Source: Halegenticoccus soli (GTDB lineage: Archaea; Halobacteriota; Halobacteria; Halobacteriales; Haloferacaceae). From it: a stretch of 64,000 bases of DNA. A model generated the notes under the pieces. That model searched no databases. It was not told the DNA's origin and saw only the letters and a list, made by a program, of their open reading frames with translations. Numbering within the stretch: position 1 is the stretch's first letter; every line of letters starts with the position of its first letter. Shown in pieces: positions 22,203 through 30,887 of this stretch. A program made the position numbers and the translations under genes. The stretch lies in contig NZ_PEND01000001.1 of the NCBI RefSeq assembly GCF_002844195.1, forward strand, positions 620,001 to 684,000, read 5' to 3'.

Positions 22203-23567
22203 TCAGTCGTCGGAAAGCTGTTCGAGCACGTGCGGAGGGATGTCGGCGCTCTCTGCGATCCCGTCCGGGATTCCGTCGAGAAGCGAGTCGTCCGGCGTCG
22301 CGTCCGCGGTCGGCGGCGTCGATCCGCCGAACTCGGGATCGAAAAGCTGCATGGCCGTCTGGATCGTGGTCCAGTCGTCCTCGGCCGCCGCGTCGCGCAG
22401 GCTCTTGGTCGGCGCGGCGAGCAGTTGCCCGACGAGCGCGTCCGCCAGCGCCGCGACCGTCTCCCGCTGCTCGTCGGTCAGCTCGCCCTGCGCTTCGAGC
22501 TTCGAGAGCGCGGTGTCGAGCTCCCGCTCCTTCACGATCTCGGCGCTCTCGTACATCGCGCTGATGGCGTCGTCCGCCCGCTTGCGCTTGTAGGCGTCGA
22601 GGAGGCGCTCGAACTCCTCGTCGATCATCGCCTCCACCTGCTCGGCCTCGCGCGCCCGCTGCTCTCGCGTCTCGGCGGTGACCGACCGGAGCGCGTCGAT
22701 GTCGCGGAGGGTGACGCCCTCGACCGCGACCGCGTCGGGGTCGACGTCGCGCGGCTGGGCGATGTCGATGAGCACGGTTTCGCCGGCGCCTTCGAGCGCG
22801 GCGCGGTCGAGCACGTACGTCGAACTCCCCGTCGCCGCGATGACGATGTCCGCCTCCCGAGCGGCCGCCGGCGCGTCGTCGAGTCCGACGGCGCGGGCGT
22901 CCGCGTCCACCTCGGTCGCGAGGTGCTCGGCGCGGGGGACGGTCCGGTTGGCGACGATGAGCGCGCCCACGTCCGCGGCGTCGAGCGCGCGGGCCGCGAG
23001 CGCGCCCATCTCGCCGGCGCCGACGACCAGGGCCGTCGCCCCCTCGACGTCGGTCTCCGCGTCCGCCAGCGCGACCGCGGCGCTGCCGAGCGAGACGACC
23101 CCCTCGTTGATCCGCGTCTCCGTCCGGGCGCGCTCGCCGACGTGGACGGCCTTCGTCAGCGCGTCGTCCAGCATCGCGCCGATCCCGCCCGCGGCGCGGG
23201 CCTCCTCCGTCGCCGTTCTGAGCTGTCCCAGGATCTGATCCTCGCCGAGCACGAGCGACTCCAGCCCGGCGGCGACGCGCATCAGGTGGCGGATGCTCTC
23301 CTCGTGGTCCATGTGGACGATCGCGCCGTCGCGCACGTCCGGGGCGAAGTCGGAGAGGGCGGCGGCCCCCTCGGCGGCCCGGTCCGTGACGACGTACGCC
23401 TCGGCGCGGTTGCACGTCTGGATGGCGAACGCCTCCGTGACGCCGTCGCGGGCGAGGAGGTCCCGGACGACGGTCCGCTCGTCCTCGCGGCAGGCGGCGG
23501 CGATCTCGTCCACGCTCGCACGCACGTGCGAGACGCTAACGCCGGATATCACGCCCGCGTCAATCAT
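22203..23567 (-). CDS. hemA: Glutamyl-tRNA reductase HemA
   Basis: HemA reduces glutamyl-tRNA(Glu) to glutamate-1-semialdehyde with NADPH, the first committed step of tetrapyrrole synthesis. The 454-residue protein has the catalytic Cys in QTCNRAEAYVV (about 50-60), EDQILGQLRTA, the Rossmann NADPH site ALVVGAGEMGALAARAL and a long C-terminal helical dimerisation domain from about 300. It is a little longer than usual because of an acidic C-terminal tail. Its ATG overlaps the stop of the precorrin-2 dehydrogenase gene by four bases, so it is the last gene of the heme operon. Confidence 0.95.
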   Translation of the reverse strand: MIDAGVISGVSVSHVRASVDEIAAACREDERTVVRDLLARDGVTEAFAIQTCNRAEAYVVTDRAAEGAAALSDFAPDVRDGAIVHMDHEESIRHLMRVAAGLESLVLGEDQILGQLRTATEEARAAGGIGAMLDDALTKAVHVGERARTETRINEGVVSLGSAAVALADAETDVEGATALVVGAGEMGALAARALDAADVGALIVANRTVPRAEHLATEVDADARAVGLDDAPAAAREADIVIAATGSSTYVLDRAALEGAGETVLIDIAQPRDVDPDAVAVEGVTLRDIDALRSVTAETREQRAREAEQVEAMIDEEFERLLDAYKRKRADDAISAMYESAEIVKERELDTALSKLEAQGELTDEQRETVAALADALVGQLLAAPTKSLRDAAAEDDWTTIQTAMQLFDPEFGGSTPPTADATPDDSLLDGIPDGIAESADIPPHVLEQLSDD

Positions 23568-24211
23568 CGCGGCTCACCTCTGGTTTCTCGAATCACGCGC
23601 TCCGCCTCTCTCCGGGCGTTAGATTCCGCCGTACGTAAAGCCTTCCAAACGCGCGAACTCCGCGCGACGGCCCGAATCGCCGCCCTGCGCTCGTCCGGCG
23701 GGACGCCGTCCCCCTTCAGTTCCTCGCGGAGTTCGCCGGTCAGCTCCGCCATCGCGCCCGCGCCTGCCAGCTCCGACTCCAGCCGCTCGCGGAGGTACTT
23801 CGACAGCGCGGGGCTCGCCCCGCCGGTCGAGACGGCGACCGTCACGGGCCCGTCGCGGACGGTCGCCGGGACGACGACGCTGCCCGCGTCGCGTCCGCCC
23901 GCGCGGTCCGCCCGGTTGACCAGCGCGCAGCGCCCGCGCGCCGCGGCCTCGGCCGCGCCGTTCACCGCGTCGTCGTCCGTCGCGGCGACGACGAGCGCGG
24001 GGTCGACCCGGTCGACCCACCCGGACACCGCCTCGGGCGTCGGCGCGGCCCGGACCAGTTCCGCGTCCCCGAAGTCGCGCCCGCCGAACGCGGGACTCAC
24101 GACGACGACGCGCGCCTCGCGCGCGAACCGCCGGGCCTTGCGCGCGCCGACGGCGCCGCCGCCGAAGACGAGCACGGACTCGTCCGAGAAGTCGTGGAAC
24201 AGCGGGATCAT
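23564..24211 (-). CDS. Precorrin-2 dehydrogenase / sirohydrochlorin ferrochelatase-like protein
   Basis: This 215-residue protein corresponds to the N-terminal half of CysG (Met8p-like): NAD-dependent oxidation of precorrin-2 to sirohydrochlorin and possibly iron insertion. It begins MIPLFHDFSDESVLVFGGGAVGARKARRF, the typical Rossmann start, and carries VAATDDDAVNGAAEAAARGRCALVNRAD and the substrate loop VAVSTGGASPALSKYLRE. The C-terminal helix bundle is shorter than in bacteria. Its position between ahbAB and hemA shows that the organism makes heme through siroheme, the archaeal route. The start lies 4 nt after the ahbAB stop. Confidence 0.9.
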   Translation of the reverse strand: MIPLFHDFSDESVLVFGGGAVGARKARRFAREARVVVVSPAFGGRDFGDAELVRAAPTPEAVSGWVDRVDPALVVAATDDDAVNGAAEAAARGRCALVNRADRAGGRDAGSVVVPATVRDGPVTVAVSTGGASPALSKYLRERLESELAGAGAMAELTGELREELKGDGVPPDERRAAIRAVARSSRVWKALRTAESNARREAERVIRETRGEPR

Positions 24212-24215
24212 GTGG

Positions 24216-25439
24216 CTACTCGGCCGAAGCGTCCGTGTCCGCGCCGGCTGCGCTCGCGGCGTTTGCCGTGTTCGCCTCGGCTCGCTCGGTCAGTCTGATA
24301 CCCGTTTTCTTCAGGATTCGCGCGGAAAACAGCGTGTCCCAGTTGCCGGCGTCCCGATCGTCGCCGACCTGCGGGTCGCTGCCGACGTCCCGCCCGCCGC
24401 CGACGTGCCGCTCTCGATCCCGCTCGCCGGCGTCGGAGGCGATCCGTCGGGCCGACGCCGGCTCCTCGTCGACGTCCCAGTACTCGGCCATCTTCGCACG
24501 CACCTCCCGGATCCGGCGTTCGCTCTCCTCCTCGCTGCGGCCGTGGGTCATCGCGAAGAAGTTGTACGGCCAGACGCCCCCGTGGCGCGGGCGCTGATAG
24601 CAGTGGGTGACGAAATCGAGCGAGGCGACGGCGGGGCCGACCTCCTCGACGAGGTCGTCGGGGACGTTCCAGACGGTCATGCCGTTCTCGGTGTAGCCGA
24701 GGGCGTAGTGGTTCGGGATGACGCCGACCCGTCGGATCTTCCCCTCCAGGTCGAACCGCGCTATCGTTTCGAGGACCCACTCCGTCTCGACGCCGAGCGC
24801 CTCCGCCACGTCGCGGTACGGCGTCTCGGCGATCGGCAGGCCGTCCTGGATCTCGGAGACGAGCTCGAGTTCGCGGGGAGTGAGGGTCCGCCTGCCGATC
24901 GGCTCCGCGTCGGGGCCGAGGTGCGAGAGGTCGACGTCGCCGTCGGGGATCGGTCCGTCGACGAGGAACTTCGCCTCGACCCGGAACTCGCGGACTTTCG
25001 GCATGTTGTACGTCGGCTGGCCGGTCTCCGCTTCGATCTCGGCGAGCACCTCCGCCACCTCGTCCTCGTTCGCCACGCTGACGACGAACCACATGTTGAG
25101 GTGCGGGTGCTCGCGCTCGTAGTTGTGCGCCACCTCGCGGTGGGCGTTCACGAGGTCGGCGACCTCGTCGAACCGGTCCGGCGGCGCGTGCATCGCGACC
25201 AGCGTCGCGGTCCCGCCGATCTCCTCGGCGTTGACGAGCGCGCCGAAGCGCGTCAGCACGCCCGACTCGTCCAGCTCGCGGATGCGGTCGCACAGCTCCG
25301 ACGCGGTGACGTCCACGCCGCGCTCCCGGAGCGCCGCGGCGGCCGGGTCGAACGGACGTTCGACCACCGGAAAGCCGCCCTGGAAGGCGTTGATGACGGC
25401 GCGGTCGAGCGTCGAGAGGTCCGCGTCCACCGTTCTCAT
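24216..25439 (-). CDS. Fused siroheme decarboxylase AhbA-AhbB
   Basis: Siroheme decarboxylase converts siroheme to didecarboxysiroheme, the archaeal heme step. Here two Lrp/AsnC-like modules lie in one 407-residue chain: module 1 at about 1-170 (LSTLDRAVINAFQGGFPVV, VLTRFGALVN, HLNMWFVVS) and module 2 at about 180-375 (LTPRELELVSEIQDGLPIA, GKIRRVGVIPNHYALGY, MTVWNVPDD, FVTHCYQRPRHGGVWPYNFFAMTHG). The typical end LFSARILKKTGIRL is preceded by a low-complexity insert (GERDRERHVGGGRDVGSD) and followed by an Ala-rich tail. ATG 25439 is the first residue that matches the family. It leads the heme operon. Confidence 0.87.
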   Translation of the reverse strand: MRTVDADLSTLDRAVINAFQGGFPVVERPFDPAAAALRERGVDVTASELCDRIRELDESGVLTRFGALVNAEEIGGTATLVAMHAPPDRFDEVADLVNAHREVAHNYEREHPHLNMWFVVSVANEDEVAEVLAEIEAETGQPTYNMPKVREFRVEAKFLVDGPIPDGDVDLSHLGPDAEPIGRRTLTPRELELVSEIQDGLPIAETPYRDVAEALGVETEWVLETIARFDLEGKIRRVGVIPNHYALGYTENGMTVWNVPDDLVEEVGPAVASLDFVTHCYQRPRHGGVWPYNFFAMTHGRSEEESERRIREVRAKMAEYWDVDEEPASARRIASDAGERDRERHVGGGRDVGSDPQVGDDRDAGNWDTLFSARILKKTGIRLTERAEANTANAASAAGADTDASAE

Positions 25440-25643
25440 GTTCGGCACTCGGGGAGGAGGGGGAATAAGCGTCTCGAAGCCGGCGCAACCGCCCCGATCG
25501 GAGCCGGCGAGGCCGACGAAGTCGAGCCCGGATCGGGTGCGATAGCCGAGCGCGGAGACGGCCCGGGAGTCGAGAGTGGATTCGGCGCGCCACCGAGAGC
25601 GACCCCGACTCGACCGACGAACCCTCGGCGGCGGATAGCAACT

Positions 25644-25675: not shown

Positions 25676-25750
25676 GGGCGACGGGGCTCGACCATGATCG
25701 ACGGGAGGTCGCCCGACCCGACCGCCGACTCGGCTGATGGCTCCTGTCGA
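25676..25750 (+). ncRNA. Probable fluoride riboswitch (crcB motif)
   Basis: The RNA lies just 5' of two fluoride channel genes. It can form P1 (GGGCGAC with GTCGCCC), a loop beginning GGGGCU that can pair with GGCUCC downstream to make the family's pseudoknot, and a P2 hairpin GCCG-ACU-CGGC followed directly by UGAUGGCUCCUGU. The last element closely matches the conserved crcB end UGAUGGCxUCxxC. The P1 loop holds an extra mini-hairpin (TCGA-CCATGA-TCGA) not present in the minimal motif. An in-frame ATG at 25694 lies inside the aptamer and is therefore unlikely to be used. Confidence 0.72.
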
Positions 25751-25786
25751 CGACACCGCGGGACGGAATCTCCTGCCCGAACACAG

Positions 25787-26173
25787 ATGAGACGGAAACG
25801 CGCGCTCGAACGATTCGAAACCGTACTGCTCGTCGCCGTCGGGGGATTCGCCGGATCGAACCTCCGGTACTTCTTCGACGCCGCGATCCCGCAGCCCCTC
25901 GCGGCGACGTTCCTCGTGAACGTGGCCGGGAGCTTCGCGCTCGCCGTGTTACTGTACGACGCGACGGGCGGCGAACTGTTCGCGCGCCGGAGCCGGCTCG
26001 TCTTCGGCGCGGGCTTCCTCTCGTCTTTCACCACGTACAGCACGTTCGTCGTCGAGGCGTTCACCCGCCCCGACGCCGCGCTGCTGTACGTCGGCGCGAG
26101 CTACGCCTGCGGGTTCGGCGCGGTGCTGGTGGGACGCGCGGCCCTCGGCCGCATCGACGGAGGCGGGCACTGA
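25787..26173 (+). CDS. crcB: Fluoride ion channel CrcB/Fluc, first subunit
   Basis: The 128-residue protein has four membrane helices and exports F- passively. Family motifs are GGFAGSNLRYFFD (first loop), TFLVNVAGSFALAVL (with the pore Asn) and GFLSSFTTYSTFVVEAF (the fluoride-lining Phe-Thr-Thr-Tyr-Ser motif). ATG 25787 is used because earlier residues would be read from the riboswitch. Two-gene crcB pairs usually encode an antiparallel heterodimer with opposite membrane orientation, and the second gene follows with an overlapping TGATG. Expression should rise with fluoride through the riboswitch. Confidence 0.9.
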   Translation: MRRKRALERFETVLLVAVGGFAGSNLRYFFDAAIPQPLAATFLVNVAGSFALAVLLYDATGGELFARRSRLVFGAGFLSSFTTYSTFVVEAFTRPDAALLYVGASYACGFGAVLVGRAALGRIDGGGH

Positions 26174-26517
26174 TGGATCCGGCGCACCTCCTCGGCACCG
26201 GGGGCGCGCTCGGCGCGGTCCTCCGGTACCTCGTCGGAGAGGCCGTCCCCGCGGAGGAGTTTCCGGTCGCGACGCTCGTCGTCAACGTCGTCGGGAGCTT
26301 CGTCCTGGGGCTGGTCACGTTCGGCGGCGTCGGCGGCGACGTCGCGCTGTTCGTGGGCGGCGGCATGTGCGGGGCGTTCACGACGTACTCGTCGTTCAGC
26401 GTCCAGACCGTCCTCCTGTGGGAGCGGCGGACGCCGCTTCTCGCCGCCGTCAACGCCGCGGGGAACCTCCTTTCGTGCGTCGGCGCGGTCTGGCTCGCGC
26501 GGCTGCTGGTCGGCTGA
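26173..26517 (+). CDS. crcB: Fluoride ion channel CrcB/Fluc, second subunit
   Basis: A 114-residue partner of the preceding gene, with motifs GTGGALGAVLRYLVGE, TLVVNVVGSFVLGLVTF and GGMCGAFTTYSSFSVQTVLL. The charges around the helices differ from those of the first subunit, as expected of an oppositely inserted partner. The ATG shares its A with the upstream TGA (TGATG), which sets the start and implies coupled translation. Confidence 0.9.
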   Translation: MDPAHLLGTGGALGAVLRYLVGEAVPAEEFPVATLVVNVVGSFVLGLVTFGGVGGDVALFVGGGMCGAFTTYSSFSVQTVLLWERRTPLLAAVNAAGNLLSCVGAVWLARLLVG

Positions 26518-26545: not shown

Positions 26546-26938
26546 TCAGGGGACCGGCGTCACCCGGTGACCCATCCCCTCGATCTCCTCGACGATCGCC
26601 TCCTGGTCGGTGTCCGCCTCGTAGTAGAACACCAGGTCGAACGTCCCCTCGCGGAGGAGCTGCTGGCACTCCCAGACGAACTCGTCGTCTTCGAGGGTGA
26701 GCCCCTGGAACTGGTTCGAGGCGAACCGGCTGTCGTCGTTGCCGGCGTAGATGTACGCCTCGCCCTTGCCGGCGTGCGCCGCGATCACGTCGTTCAGCTC
26801 GACCGTCAGCTCGTGCATCTCGAGGTCCTCGTCGCTCGTGAGGTCCGTGTGGACGATGACGCCAGCGAGTTCGATCTCCCCCGGTTCGAGGAACGCCTTC
26901 GTCCGCTGGTAGAGGTCCTCGTCGAGAACGTCGCTCAT
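26546..26938 (-). CDS. DUF5778-like haloarchaeal protein of unknown function
   Basis: The 130-residue acidic, soluble protein has an alpha/beta pattern (LAGVIVHTDLTSDEDLEMHELTVELNDVIAAHAGKGEAYIYAG, then TFDLVFYYEAD, and an end EIEGMGHRVTPVP). No enzyme motif is visible. I recall a haloarchaeal DUF5778 family of this length and content, but this is by memory only. It converges on the crcB genes with a 28-nt gap, and both transcripts probably end there. Confidence 0.5.
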   Translation of the reverse strand: MSDVLDEDLYQRTKAFLEPGEIELAGVIVHTDLTSDEDLEMHELTVELNDVIAAHAGKGEAYIYAGNDDSRFASNQFQGLTLEDDEFVWECQQLLREGTFDLVFYYEADTDQEAIVEEIEGMGHRVTPVP

Positions 26939-27189: not shown

Positions 27190-28119
27190 ATGCTACAGCG
27201 GGCGCGCACGGAGTTCGATCGGGCGTACGAGCGGTTGCTCCGCCGCGAGATCGGCGACGGCCCCACGCACGTCGCCATCATCCAGGACGGCAACCGACGG
27301 TACGCCCGAAAACGCGGCGCTGAGGCCCCCGACGGGCACCGCGCCGGGGCGCAGACGACCGAGAACGTCCTCGACTGGTGCGACGAACTCGGCATCGAGG
27401 AGCTGACGCTTTATGCCTTCTCGACGGAGAACTTCAACCGGCCGCCCGAGGAGCGCGAGCCGCTCTTCGACCTCATCGAGTCGAAGCTCCGCGAGTTCGC
27501 CGACGCGGAGCGGGTCCACGAAAACGAGGTGTGCATCCGCGCCATCGGCGACATCGATCGGCTCCCGCGCCGCGTCCGCGACGCTGTCGACTACGCGGAG
27601 GATCGGACGCGCGAGTACCACCGCTTCCGCCTGAACATCGCGCTCGCCTACGGCGGCAGGAGCGAACTCCTCCGCGCCGCGCGGGACGTGGCGGCCGCCG
27701 TCCGCGACGGCGACCTCGCGGCCGACGAGATCGACGTCGCGGAGATCGAGGGCCGCCTCTACCGCCAGCCCGTCCGCGACGTGGACCTCATCATCCGCAC
27801 CGGCGGCGACGAGCGCACGAGCAACTTCCTCCCGTGGCACGCGAACGGCAACGAGGCCGCGGTCTACTTCTGTGCCCCCTTCTGGCCGGAGTTCTCGAAG
27901 GCGGATTTCCTCCGCGGGATCCGGACCTACGAGTCCCGCGAGGCGTCGTGGCAGCGCACCCGAACCGAGCGGGCGGTCGCGCTCGTGCGGGCGCTGGCGG
28001 GCGTCGAACTGGCGGAGGCGCGGAGCGTGGCGGCGCGCCTGCGCGATCAGCTGTCGAGTCGCGGGGCCAGGGAGATCAACGAGGCGCTCGAACGCCACGA
28101 ACTCGAACCGGCCGACTGA
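27190..28119 (+). CDS. uppS: cis-prenyltransferase (UppS family), catalytic-type subunit
   Basis: Makes a long cis-polyprenyl diphosphate, the precursor of the dolichol-type carrier used in glycoprotein synthesis. The 309-residue protein keeps the whole catalytic core: IIQDGNRRYARKRG with Asp33, the substrate region LTLYAFSTENFNRPPEE, IGDIDRLPRRV, LNIALAYGGRSELLRA and VDLIIRTGGDERTSNFLPWH. Past this it departs from the norm: the usual SELYF stretch is AAVYFCAPFWPEFSK, and an extra 60-residue tail follows. A second paralogue without the DGNR motif lies at 28862-29476, so the two may form one enzyme. Confidence 0.9.
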   Translation: MLQRARTEFDRAYERLLRREIGDGPTHVAIIQDGNRRYARKRGAEAPDGHRAGAQTTENVLDWCDELGIEELTLYAFSTENFNRPPEEREPLFDLIESKLREFADAERVHENEVCIRAIGDIDRLPRRVRDAVDYAEDRTREYHRFRLNIALAYGGRSELLRAARDVAAAVRDGDLAADEIDVAEIEGRLYRQPVRDVDLIIRTGGDERTSNFLPWHANGNEAAVYFCAPFWPEFSKADFLRGIRTYESREASWQRTRTERAVALVRALAGVELAEARSVAARLRDQLSSRGAREINEALERHELEPAD

Positions 28120-28149
28120 CGAGCGGCGCGGTCCCAGAGCGCCGGCGCG

Positions 28150-28662
28150 CTACCGTTCGAACCGCCAGCGCGTGGCGTCGCGCGGGTAGTCGCTCCACGC
28201 GAAGACGGCGCGCGGGCGGACGGCCCAGACCGGCGTCCCGTGCGGGATCCCGTACTTCTCCTCGTAGGCGGCGTCGATCCGTTCGAGCAGCGAGGGGTCG
28301 GTCCCCTCCCCCGGCGCGAGCTTCTCGGCGACGCCCTCGACGATCACGACCTCGTCGCCGCTTTCGCGGTGGACGGCGATCTCCGGGTTCGACGCGAGGT
28401 TCCGCGCCCAGCGCGTCTCGCCCCCGCCGCAGTGGAACGCCCCGTCGACCCAGACGCCCCACACGGGTCTCGCGTGCGGGCGGCCGCGCGGGCCGACGGT
28501 CGCCACCCAGTAGTTGCGGTCGCTCCGCATCCGCTCTTCGACGTACTCCCACGGGAGCATCCCCTCCGCGTCGGTCGGGATTCCGTACCTCGAATCGGTT
28601 TCCGGTCGGCCGCGCTCGGCGTCCGGGCGGTCGTCAGAATCGCGTTCGGTTTCGTTCGCCAT
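28150..28662 (-). CDS. Pyridoxamine 5'-phosphate oxidase-like FMN-binding split-barrel protein
   Basis: The 170-residue protein carries the split-barrel strands and the FMN loop in order: YWVATVGPRGRPHARPVWGVWVDGAFHCGGG, then RWARNLASNPEIAVHRE, and a C-terminal VWAVRPRAVFAWSDYPRDATRWRF, which is the typical end of general-stress or F420-binding relatives. Haloarchaea have F420, so FMN or F420 could be the cofactor. ATG 28662 is chosen because the frame before it is Arg/Gly-rich repeat sequence. The stop lies 31 nt from the uppS stop (convergent). Confidence 0.8.
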   Translation of the reverse strand: MANETERDSDDRPDAERGRPETDSRYGIPTDAEGMLPWEYVEERMRSDRNYWVATVGPRGRPHARPVWGVWVDGAFHCGGGETRWARNLASNPEIAVHRESGDEVVIVEGVAEKLAPGEGTDPSLLERIDAAYEEKYGIPHGTPVWAVRPRAVFAWSDYPRDATRWRFER

Positions 28663-28773
28663 CGGCCGGCTCACTAGCCGGCGTCGGCGCATAACGCCGT
28701 CGCTCGGCCGCTCTCTGTCGGCGAGCGCGCCGACGTTCGTCCCTCGACGACCCGTTCGTTCCCCGAGACCTCC

Positions 28774-28874
28774 GGGCGGTTCGCTCCGCTCACCGACCGA
28801 ACTCCCGTCGGTCCGCTCGCCGACGCTCGCTCCCCGACGACCTTTGGGCGGTTCGCTCCGCTCACCGCCCAAAG
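28774..28874. repeat. Paired GC-rich repeat and 11-bp hairpin at the end of the second uppS gene
   Basis: GGGCGGTTCGCTCCGCTCACCG occurs twice, at 28774-28795 and 28846-28867. The second copy is extended into a perfect hairpin (11-bp arms 28842-28852 and 28864-28874, 11-nt loop) that includes the uppS2 stop codon. It may end transcription of that gene. The unit resembles dispersed short repeats common near gene ends in Halorubrum-like genomes. Confidence 0.6.
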
Positions 28875-29476
28875 CGCCGCTGTCTGTTCTGGTAATCGAG
28901 CACCGCCCGGAGGTAGTCGCGCTTCCTGAAGTCGCGCCAGTTCACGTCCGTGAAGTACAGCTCGGAGTAGACCGACTGCCAGATCATGAAGTCCGAGAGC
29001 CGCTCCGCGCCCGTCTTGATCACGAGGTCCGGCTCGTCGGGGAACACGAGCCGGCGTTCGACGTCGACTTCGTCGATCTCCTCGGGGTCGAGTCGGCCGC
29101 TTTCGACCTCCCGGGCGATCGAGCGGACCGCCTCGGCGAACTCGTGTTTTCCGCCGAGTCCGATGCTCACCTGGACGGGCGCGTCGGCCCGCTCCGTGTC
29201 CCCGGGGGCGCGGACGGCGACGGGTTGCGGCGCGTCCACGGTCCGGAGCTCCCGTTCGAGCGTCGGCACGACGGCGGCGTCGAGCACGCTCACGTAGATC
29301 GTCACCCGCTCGGCGCCGTACTCGAACGCCCACCCGAGGAACCGTTCGAGCGTCTCGTAGGCACCCTGTTCGAGCAGATCCCGCTCCGTGATGACGACCG
29401 CGACGCGGGCCGGCGGATCCGCCGGGTTCCGGCGGTGGCGAAGGGCGAGATAGGCGTCGTAGAGTCCCACACCCAC
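28862..29476 (-). CDS. cis-prenyltransferase-like protein lacking the catalytic DGNR motif
   Basis: The C-terminal half of this 204-residue protein is a good UppS match: VQVSIGLGGKHEFAEAVRSIA, DLVIKTGAERLSDFMIWQSVYSELYFTDV and LDYQNRQRRFG, the regions that bind isopentenyl diphosphate and form the dimer. The N-terminal half is not: where DGNRR is expected it reads VVITERDLL (about 28-34), and the next 60-residue substrate segment is shortened. GTG 29476 or GTG 29470 is the start; the longer frame to 29866 is unrelated. By analogy with NgBR/Nus1 it may be a non-catalytic partner of the other UppS; that is inference. Confidence 0.75.
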   Translation of the reverse strand: MGVGLYDAYLALRHRRNPADPPARVAVVITERDLLEQGAYETLERFLGWAFEYGAERVTIYVSVLDAAVVPTLERELRTVDAPQPVAVRAPGDTERADAPVQVSIGLGGKHEFAEAVRSIAREVESGRLDPEEIDEVDVERRLVFPDEPDLVIKTGAERLSDFMIWQSVYSELYFTDVNWRDFRKRDYLRAVLDYQNRQRRFGR

Positions 29477-29573
29477 GAATCGCCCCGCGACGCCTAAAGC
29501 GCACGGCTTCGCGTCGGCTCGCGGGGCGGGTCGTGTCGGGAGCGTTAAGTGGGCGTCCGCGATACCGGGGAGT

Positions 29574-30887
29574 GTGACTTCCACGCTCCGGCGGGCGGGC
29601 GGATTCGCGGCCGTGGGGACGCTCGCGCTCGCGGCGCCGGTTCTCGGCGCGGTCGCCGCCGTCCCCTTCGCCGTCATCGCCGCGCTCGCGGCCTTCGTGG
29701 TCGACGACGGGCCGGTGTTCGAGCTGTTCGCCCGCCCGGGGGACCGGAAGGACGGACGGCTCAACGGGCTGGCCGGCTTCGCGCTCGCGGCGACCGGCCT
29801 GGCGCTGCTGTCGACGCTGCCGCGGATGTCGATGCCGCTCGCGGTGTTCGTCGCCGCCGTGTTCATTCTCGCCTACGGCAACCTCGGCGAGCAGTTCGTC
29901 CGCGCGTCTGGCGGCGACCCCTTCGTCTCGGCGACGGGGTTCATCCTCGTCGCGTTCCTCGCCGGCGTGGTCGGCCAGAGCGCCGCCGCCTACCTCCTGG
30001 TCGACCCCGTCTCCCTCCCCGAGGTGGTCTTCCTCGCGGCGACCGGCGCGCTCGTCGCCGCGCTGCTCCGCTCCGTGCTCTACGAGCGCGACGACCCGCT
30101 CGTGATGCTCTCGGTCGGCCTCCTCCTGTGGTTCTTCGACCTGCTCGCCATCGACGTGGGCGGCCTCACCGTCGCCGCCGCGCTCGTCGTCACCGCCGTG
30201 CTCGGCTACCTCTCCTACGCGCTCGGGACGGCGTCCGTCCCCGGCATGCTGACGGGGGTGCTGCTCGGCCTGCTCACCGTCGTTCTCGGCGGGTTCGGGT
30301 GGTTCGCCGTGCTCATCTCGTTTTTCACCATCGGGGGGCTGTCGACGAAGTTCAAGTACGAGTCGAAGCGCCGGCGCGGCGTCGCCGAGGAGAACGACGG
30401 CGCGCGGGGCAGCGGGAACGTCCTCGGGAACGCCGCGGTCGCGCTCGTCGCCGTGATCGGCTTCGCCGCCAGCCCGCACCTGCCGGTGCCCGGCGCGCTC
30501 TTTCTGTTCGCGTTCGCGGGGTCGATCGCGGCGGCGATGAGCGACACCCTCTCGAGCGAGGTCGGCGGCCTGTACGACAACCCGCGGCTGATCACGTCGT
30601 TCGAGCGCGTCGACCCCGGCACCGACGGCGGCATCACGTGGCAGGGCGAACTCGCCGGCGTCGTCGGAGCGGCCGTCGTCGCCTGCATCTCCGCGCTGCT
30701 CCTCCCGATCGGAGCGCCGCTTCTCGGCGCGCTCGTCGTCGTCGTCGGCGGGATATTCGGGATGACCGTCGACAGCGTCCTCGGCGCGACGGTCGAGGGC
30801 GAGCGCATCGGCAACCAGACCGTCAACTTCCTGGCGACGCTGGCCGGCGCCCTCGCGAGCGCCGCGCTCGCGGCCGCGCTCCTCTGA
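29574..30887 (+). CDS. DUF92 integral membrane protein (VTE6-like kinase/cytidyl family)
   Basis: The 437-residue protein has about 10-11 transmembrane helices. The family signature is in the C-terminal part: FFTIGGLSTKFKYESKRRRGVAEENDGARGSGNVLGNA, and later MSDTLSSEVGGLYDNPRLITSF and GGITWQGELAGVVGA. Plant VTE6 in this family is a phytyl-phosphate kinase; archaeal members are not well characterised. The gene is divergent from the DGNR-less uppS and its start lies 98 nt away, so a role in polyprenyl or isoprenoid phosphate handling is a reasonable guess. The start is GTG 29574. Confidence 0.8.
   Translation: MTSTLRRAGGFAAVGTLALAAPVLGAVAAVPFAVIAALAAFVVDDGPVFELFARPGDRKDGRLNGLAGFALAATGLALLSTLPRMSMPLAVFVAAVFILAYGNLGEQFVRASGGDPFVSATGFILVAFLAGVVGQSAAAYLLVDPVSLPEVVFLAATGALVAALLRSVLYERDDPLVMLSVGLLLWFFDLLAIDVGGLTVAAALVVTAVLGYLSYALGTASVPGMLTGVLLGLLTVVLGGFGWFAVLISFFTIGGLSTKFKYESKRRRGVAEENDGARGSGNVLGNAAVALVAVIGFAASPHLPVPGALFLFAFAGSIAAAMSDTLSSEVGGLYDNPRLITSFERVDPGTDGGITWQGELAGVVGAAVVACISALLLPIGAPLLGALVVVVGGIFGMTVDSVLGATVEGERIGNQTVNFLATLAGALASAALAAALL

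Follow-up and report, generated by a model that had tools for sequence, protein, structure and literature searches.

A cis-prenyltransferase made of two subunits is already known from humans and from Methanosarcina. Human NgBR ends in R290-L291-G292-K293-COOH, and the backbone of L291 and G292 binds the phosphate at the isopentenyl diphosphate (IPP) site; G292 contacts N82 and R85 of its partner DHDDS, the terminal residue contacts R37 and R85, E81 is part of the adjoining salt-bridge network, and the C-terminal domain of DHDDS builds a tetramer (PMC7573591). In Methanosarcina mazei, MM_0618 and MM_1083 are reported to form a heteromer with C45-50 products (Emi 2019, as cited in PMC8131916). 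We analysed a stretch of 64,000 nucleotides from the haloarchaeon Halegenticoccus soli (contig NZ_PEND01000001.1, positions 620,001 to 684,000; called the window below), where two genes of the UppS family, here UppS1 and UppS2, lie close to a gene for a DUF92 membrane protein. Judged from their sequences, UppS1 and UppS2 very likely pair up as subunits of a single heteromeric cis-prenyltransferase. What is new is that the split is fixed throughout the phylum Halobacteriota, and that the terminus of UppS2 matches the NgBR tail.

UppS1 carries the motifs DGNRR, FSTENFNR and IRTGGDERTSNF and is without RxG. It has the marks of a catalytic subunit of the DHDDS/Rer2 type, with the Asp and the substrate-binding residues present and no RxG at the C-terminus. 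The DHDDS residues R37, N82, R85 and E81 correspond to R36, N81, R84 and E80 of UppS1, each of which is either invariant or at least 90% conserved among the sequences. At its C-terminus is a helical extension of about 55 residues, which is short or missing in several other Halobacteriota families. A first interpretation, made from the letters alone (the sequence-only reading), had noted the DGNRR with Asp33, which is indeed there, and a changed SELYF region. The region is altered, reading GNEAAVYFCAP, but the change is only an insertion of two residues following Glu222, which is invariant in haloarchaea, and from this placement in the alignment the Glu of the region is therefore probably kept in haloarchaeal UppS1. 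The idea that haloarchaeal UppS1 had lost the Glu equivalent to E213 was considered and withdrawn, as the alignment puts Glu222 before the insertion. In one other family (f14) UppS1 has neither the insertion nor the Glu.

UppS2 matches PF01255 (3.5e-28) in its C-terminal half only, at residues 103-212 of the searched stretch. It has neither DGNR nor a donor-binding loop; VVITERDLL, SELYFTDV and LDYQNRQRRFG are all found as the sequence-only reading had listed them, together with the shortened substrate region. UppS2 has lost the equivalents of Asp26, Asn28, Arg30, Asn74 and Arg77, and its donor-binding region is shorter; in the second-substrate region (KTGAERLSDF, SELYF) the Arg, Ser and Glu are conserved. 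With the Asp lost and RxG at the extreme C-terminus, UppS2 has the marks of a non-catalytic subunit of the NgBR/Nus1 type, and to annotate it as a second undecaprenyl diphosphate synthase would be misleading.

To tabulate these residues, haloarchaeal and other Halobacteriota homologues were aligned with UppS of Escherichia coli; the E. coli reference that sets the residue numbering was confirmed over some stretches only. The catalytic Asp is found in all 122 complete haloarchaeal UppS1 proteins, a count that leaves out three truncated or frame-broken copies, and RxG in none of the 125. Not one of 139 haloarchaeal UppS2 proteins has the Asp (the column holds T in 136, A in two and S in one), and every one has R-x-G, the Gly being its penultimate residue. 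Proteins from 17 further families were sorted into two orthologous groups by profile score. All 36 of the UppS1 type have DGN and lack RxG; DGN is absent from all 35 of the UppS2 type, 34 of which have RxG and one KFG. Two UppS2 proteins of one family (f15) hold an Asp at the catalytic column, with the rest of the DGN motif absent. The partition of motifs is kept in every complete homologue, apart from the one conservative exception to RxG outside the haloarchaea, and is therefore not a matter of chance. The complementary pattern, typical of heteromers, that had been proposed from the letters is borne out by this strict partition, by the genome having only two members of the family, by the conserved neighbourhood and by the Methanosarcina orthology; the RxG with its one terminal residue had not been named.

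The source genome has exactly two PF01255 genes, those of UppS1 and UppS2, one DUF92 gene and an STT3/AglB gene. A comparison of gene presence across haloarchaea, which had been suggested as a check, gave at least two PF01255 genes in 291 of 292 Halobacteriales genomes; the sole exception is a draft in 120 contigs, and its single match scores like UppS2. For Halobacteriota the figure is 117 of 119, and the remaining two, of the same genus, have zero matches (G298 and G306; family f17, genus g85; 91% completeness), so that either data are missing or this archaeon is without a cis-prenyltransferase. A UppS2 match was present in all 59 genomes of a co-occurrence check. Three or four PF01255 genes were seen in the haloarchaeal genomes G001, G025, G040, G124, G143, G148, G188, G238 and G241, among which at least G143, G025 and G040 each contain two strong matches that are UppS1-like.

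The neighbourhood was counted in 124 haloarchaeal loci of at least 14 kb each. In 101 of them UppS1 lies next to UppS2 in convergent orientation, and in 109 UppS2 and DUF92 are adjacent and divergent. Among 15 other families, the convergent arrangement occurs in at least one genome of ten and the divergent one in six. The adjacency of UppS2 and DUF92 persists with UppS1 located elsewhere in three families (f14, f18, f25), and in seven others UppS1 is beside UppS2, with DUF92 apart from UppS2 or not examined.

A genome of family f12 (G381) has one UppS1-type gene, one UppS2-type gene and a third enzyme that matches MM_0014 over its whole length (E 3e-138), and in some genomes of this family the third enzyme, found alongside UppS1 and UppS2, is nearly identical to MM_0014. 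Since the third enzyme is of the MM_0014 type, MM_0618 and MM_1083 would be the orthologues of UppS1 and UppS2. The haloarchaeal pair is thus very probably orthologous to the M. mazei pair, by elimination rather than from the sequences of MM_0618 and MM_1083. Third cis-prenyltransferases of the MM_0014 type, ending TLGG, were also seen outside this family (loci L276, L277, L278 and L282; families f11 and f26).

Structures were predicted with AlphaFold2 as monomers, each protein as a single chain. The UppS1 model has a mean predicted local distance difference test score (pLDDT) of 83.8, and DHDDS, as it occurs in the human complex, gives its top PDB matches, which span about 320 columns and reach the C-terminal helices. 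The overall fit is loose, with a root-mean-square deviation of about 12 Å, and the position of the C-terminal extension therefore differs. The UppS2 model has a pLDDT of 84.6, with a weak stretch at residues 164-169, the SELYF region.

The product of the heteromer is very probably the polyprenyl diphosphate from which haloarchaeal dolichyl phosphate is made. In this reading, UppS1 would supply the working active site, with Asp33 for Mg, Arg36, Arg37 and Arg84 binding the allylic diphosphate and Arg203, Arg209 and Ser211 binding IPP. UppS2 would be catalytically dead, and its C-terminal tail, R-F-G and one residue, would cross the dimer interface and complete the UppS1 site in the way the NgBR tail does for DHDDS. 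The physical complex, the length of its product and the essentiality of the two proteins are what we infer here. A dimer of heterodimers, held together by the helical C-terminal extension of UppS1, is plausible by analogy.

Several observations weigh against a heteromer. On its own, human DHDDS still has about 1/400 of the activity, and the canonical motif is missing from yeast Nus1 (PMC7573591). As a monomer, UppS2 is closest in fold to DHDDS rather than to NgBR. A missing RxG is no proof that UppS1 depends on UppS2, as enzymes without it can act alone: MM_0014 lacks RxG, yet it is active and was crystallised as a homodimer (PMC8131916). The universal co-occurrence of the two genes may merely mark both as core genes, and in genomes of a Halorubrum-like genus (g2) they are held apart. 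Rate covariation (mirror-tree, partial correlations) is positive for UppS1-UppS2, yet it does not single out the pair, with a partial r of 0.41 as compared to 0.48 for DUF92-DUF5778 and 0.39 for DUF92-DnaG; it does not discriminate and was therefore not used as support.

The activity of MM_0014, the distance between the genes in genus g2 and the weak activity of DHDDS homodimers, which do form (PMC7573591), would all agree with UppS1 being a self-sufficient homodimer, with UppS2 as a separate protein that is not essential and acts as a regulator or modifies chain length. This is improbable, given that UppS2 is kept alongside UppS1 in nearly all genomes of the phylum, that its tail motif is almost absolutely constrained, and that the Methanosarcina orthologues are heteromeric according to what PMC8131916 cites of Emi 2019. 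Another explanation is that the main partner of UppS2 is DUF92 and not UppS1, and that UppS2 aids a membrane lipid kinase with polyprenyl phosphates. The UppS2-DUF92 adjacency is no less conserved than that of UppS1 and UppS2 (109 versus 101 loci), it survives in the three families where UppS1 has moved off, and the partial rate correlation is similar. The seven families that keep UppS1 and UppS2 together point the other way, a shared divergent promoter region would account for co-regulation without contact, and the complementarity of the residues favours UppS1, which leaves DUF92 a very unlikely main partner. It would be more surprising still if UppS2 were an independent enzyme whose retained residues, resembling an IPP site, give it an altered activity. 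The Arg, Ser and Glu conserved in the second-substrate region would fit such an enzyme, but they are the residues that a partner subunit would supply, and with five active-site equivalents gone and a shortened donor-binding region we give this explanation hardly any credence.

The sequence-only reading had placed the DUF92 protein in the VTE6 phytyl-phosphate kinase family. The protein has the DUF92 domain, but scores 172.5 bits with TIGR00297, under the cut-off of 205.85; at its N-terminus about 200 residues form a membrane domain that aligns with the N-termini of other Halobacteriota members across the phylum. In 2015 Makarova et al. (PMC5898192) reported a link between DUF92 and uppS genes, for arCOG02245 and HVO_2318; the passages on this link predict an isoprenoid kinase step for arCOG02245/DUF92 and call the N-terminal domain of Mbar_A3310 Sec59-like. 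Profile searches with Pfam and NCBIfam found no dolichol-kinase domain in the DUF92 N-terminus, and the Sec59-like or dolichol-kinase claim therefore rests on those passages and on the N-terminal homology. An internal duplication within DUF92 was considered and rejected (hhalign probability 0.3%). The association of DUF92 with UppS2 that had been read from the window is real, as the haloarchaeal loci show, though it is already contained in those passages. It is plausible that DUF92 is a lipid or lipid-phosphate kinase of the same pathway, its activity being a guess, and we infer that the locus may make or recycle a dolichol-type carrier.

Table 1. Features of the UppS1-UppS2-DUF92 locus (positions in the window).
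Feature	Position	Strand	Remarks
UppS1, probable catalytic subunit	27190..28119	+	309 aa; PF01255 1.8e-69, TIGR00055 above cut-off (profile search)
PPOX-fold gene (F420-dependent oxidoreductase-like)	28150-28692	-	in the gap between UppS1 and UppS2
UppS2, probable NgBR/Nus1-like non-catalytic subunit	28862..29470	-	about 202 aa; GTG start codon at 29470; C-terminus RRFGR
UppS2 RxG motif (R-F-G codons)	28868..28876	-	then one Arg codon (28865-28867), then the stop (28862-28864)
Putative shared divergent promoter region (UppS2/DUF92)	29471..29573	.	from sequence and archaeal TATA-box spacing
DUF92 membrane protein	29574..30887	+	437 aa; PF01940 6.6e-57; C-terminal DUF92 domain

The genes of UppS1 and UppS2 are convergent, and the 0.7 kb first estimated between them was measured to be 742 bp. 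The gap is occupied by a PPOX-fold gene that had gone unmentioned; among the fetched loci it was matched in Halegenticoccus L034 only, and it therefore looks like a lineage-specific insertion, unrelated to the pair. As listed, the UppS2 open reading frame (28862-29866) overlaps the DUF92 gene, but its homologues begin at the position corresponding to the GTG, and the bounds in the table were therefore set there. UppS2 and DUF92 are divergent and separated by 103 bp. A TTTAGG box (29498-29493, minus strand) about 25 bp upstream of the GTG suggests a leaderless UppS2 transcript, and TTAAGT (29545-29550, plus strand) stands upstream of DUF92; going by the spacing, both genes look leaderless.

A DUF5778 gene (26546-26938, minus strand) adjoins UppS1 and is a neighbour kept across many haloarchaeal loci. 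Elsewhere in the window, two overlapping, adjacent genes of the CrcB/Fluc family (25694-26517, plus strand; 159 and 114 aa; PF02537 4.6e-19 and 5.4e-23) are probably a paired fluoride channel. A single protein with two AsnC_trans_reg2 and two siroheme-decarboxylase helix-turn-helix stretches (24216-25616, minus strand) is probably a fused AhbA-AhbB siroheme decarboxylase, and its gene adjoins a precorrin-2 dehydrogenase-like gene (23564-24211, minus strand).

A heteromer of UppS1 and UppS2 would be a concrete candidate for the haloarchaeal dolichol-chain synthase, a step without assignment in the N-glycosylation literature surveyed, in organisms with good genetics; the dolichol-type lipid is the carrier for the assembly of cell-surface sugars. 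It would also make the split enzyme reported in Methanosarcina the rule across Halobacteriota. One could go further and suppose that the ancestor of Halobacteriota already had the two-part enzyme in obligate form, its UppS1 with a C-terminal domain resembling that of DHDDS and serving to build a dimer of heterodimers, and that eukaryotic DHDDS/NgBR descended from such an archaeal heteromer rather than arising independently, but this we find rather doubtful.

Compared with known systems, UppS1 shares fold and family with bacterial UppS (E. coli, 1JP3) and has all its catalytic residues; the bacterial enzyme is a homodimer with the Asp and RxG in one chain, whereas here they are on separate chains. 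The neighbourhood in PMC5898192 has the same gene association and an isoprenoid-kinase prediction, but the passages on HVO_2318, the UppS of H. volcanii, do not describe it as a non-catalytic subunit. The Methanosarcina heteromer belongs to the same phylum, and family f12 has one gene of each type, but there the genes lie apart, whereas the haloarchaeal ones are convergent neighbours; assembly has been reported for the former, and the haloarchaeal pair is known from its genes. UppS2 resembles NgBR weakly (E 2.5e-5 to 9e-5), though its profile aligns from end to end, and UppS2 is shorter, starting almost at the domain, without the transmembrane N-terminal part. The design is nevertheless that of human DHDDS/NgBR (6W2L, 6Z1N), in which a catalytic chain with the Asp, without RxG and with a helical C-terminal extension like that of UppS1, is joined by a dead partner that ends with RxG and one more residue.

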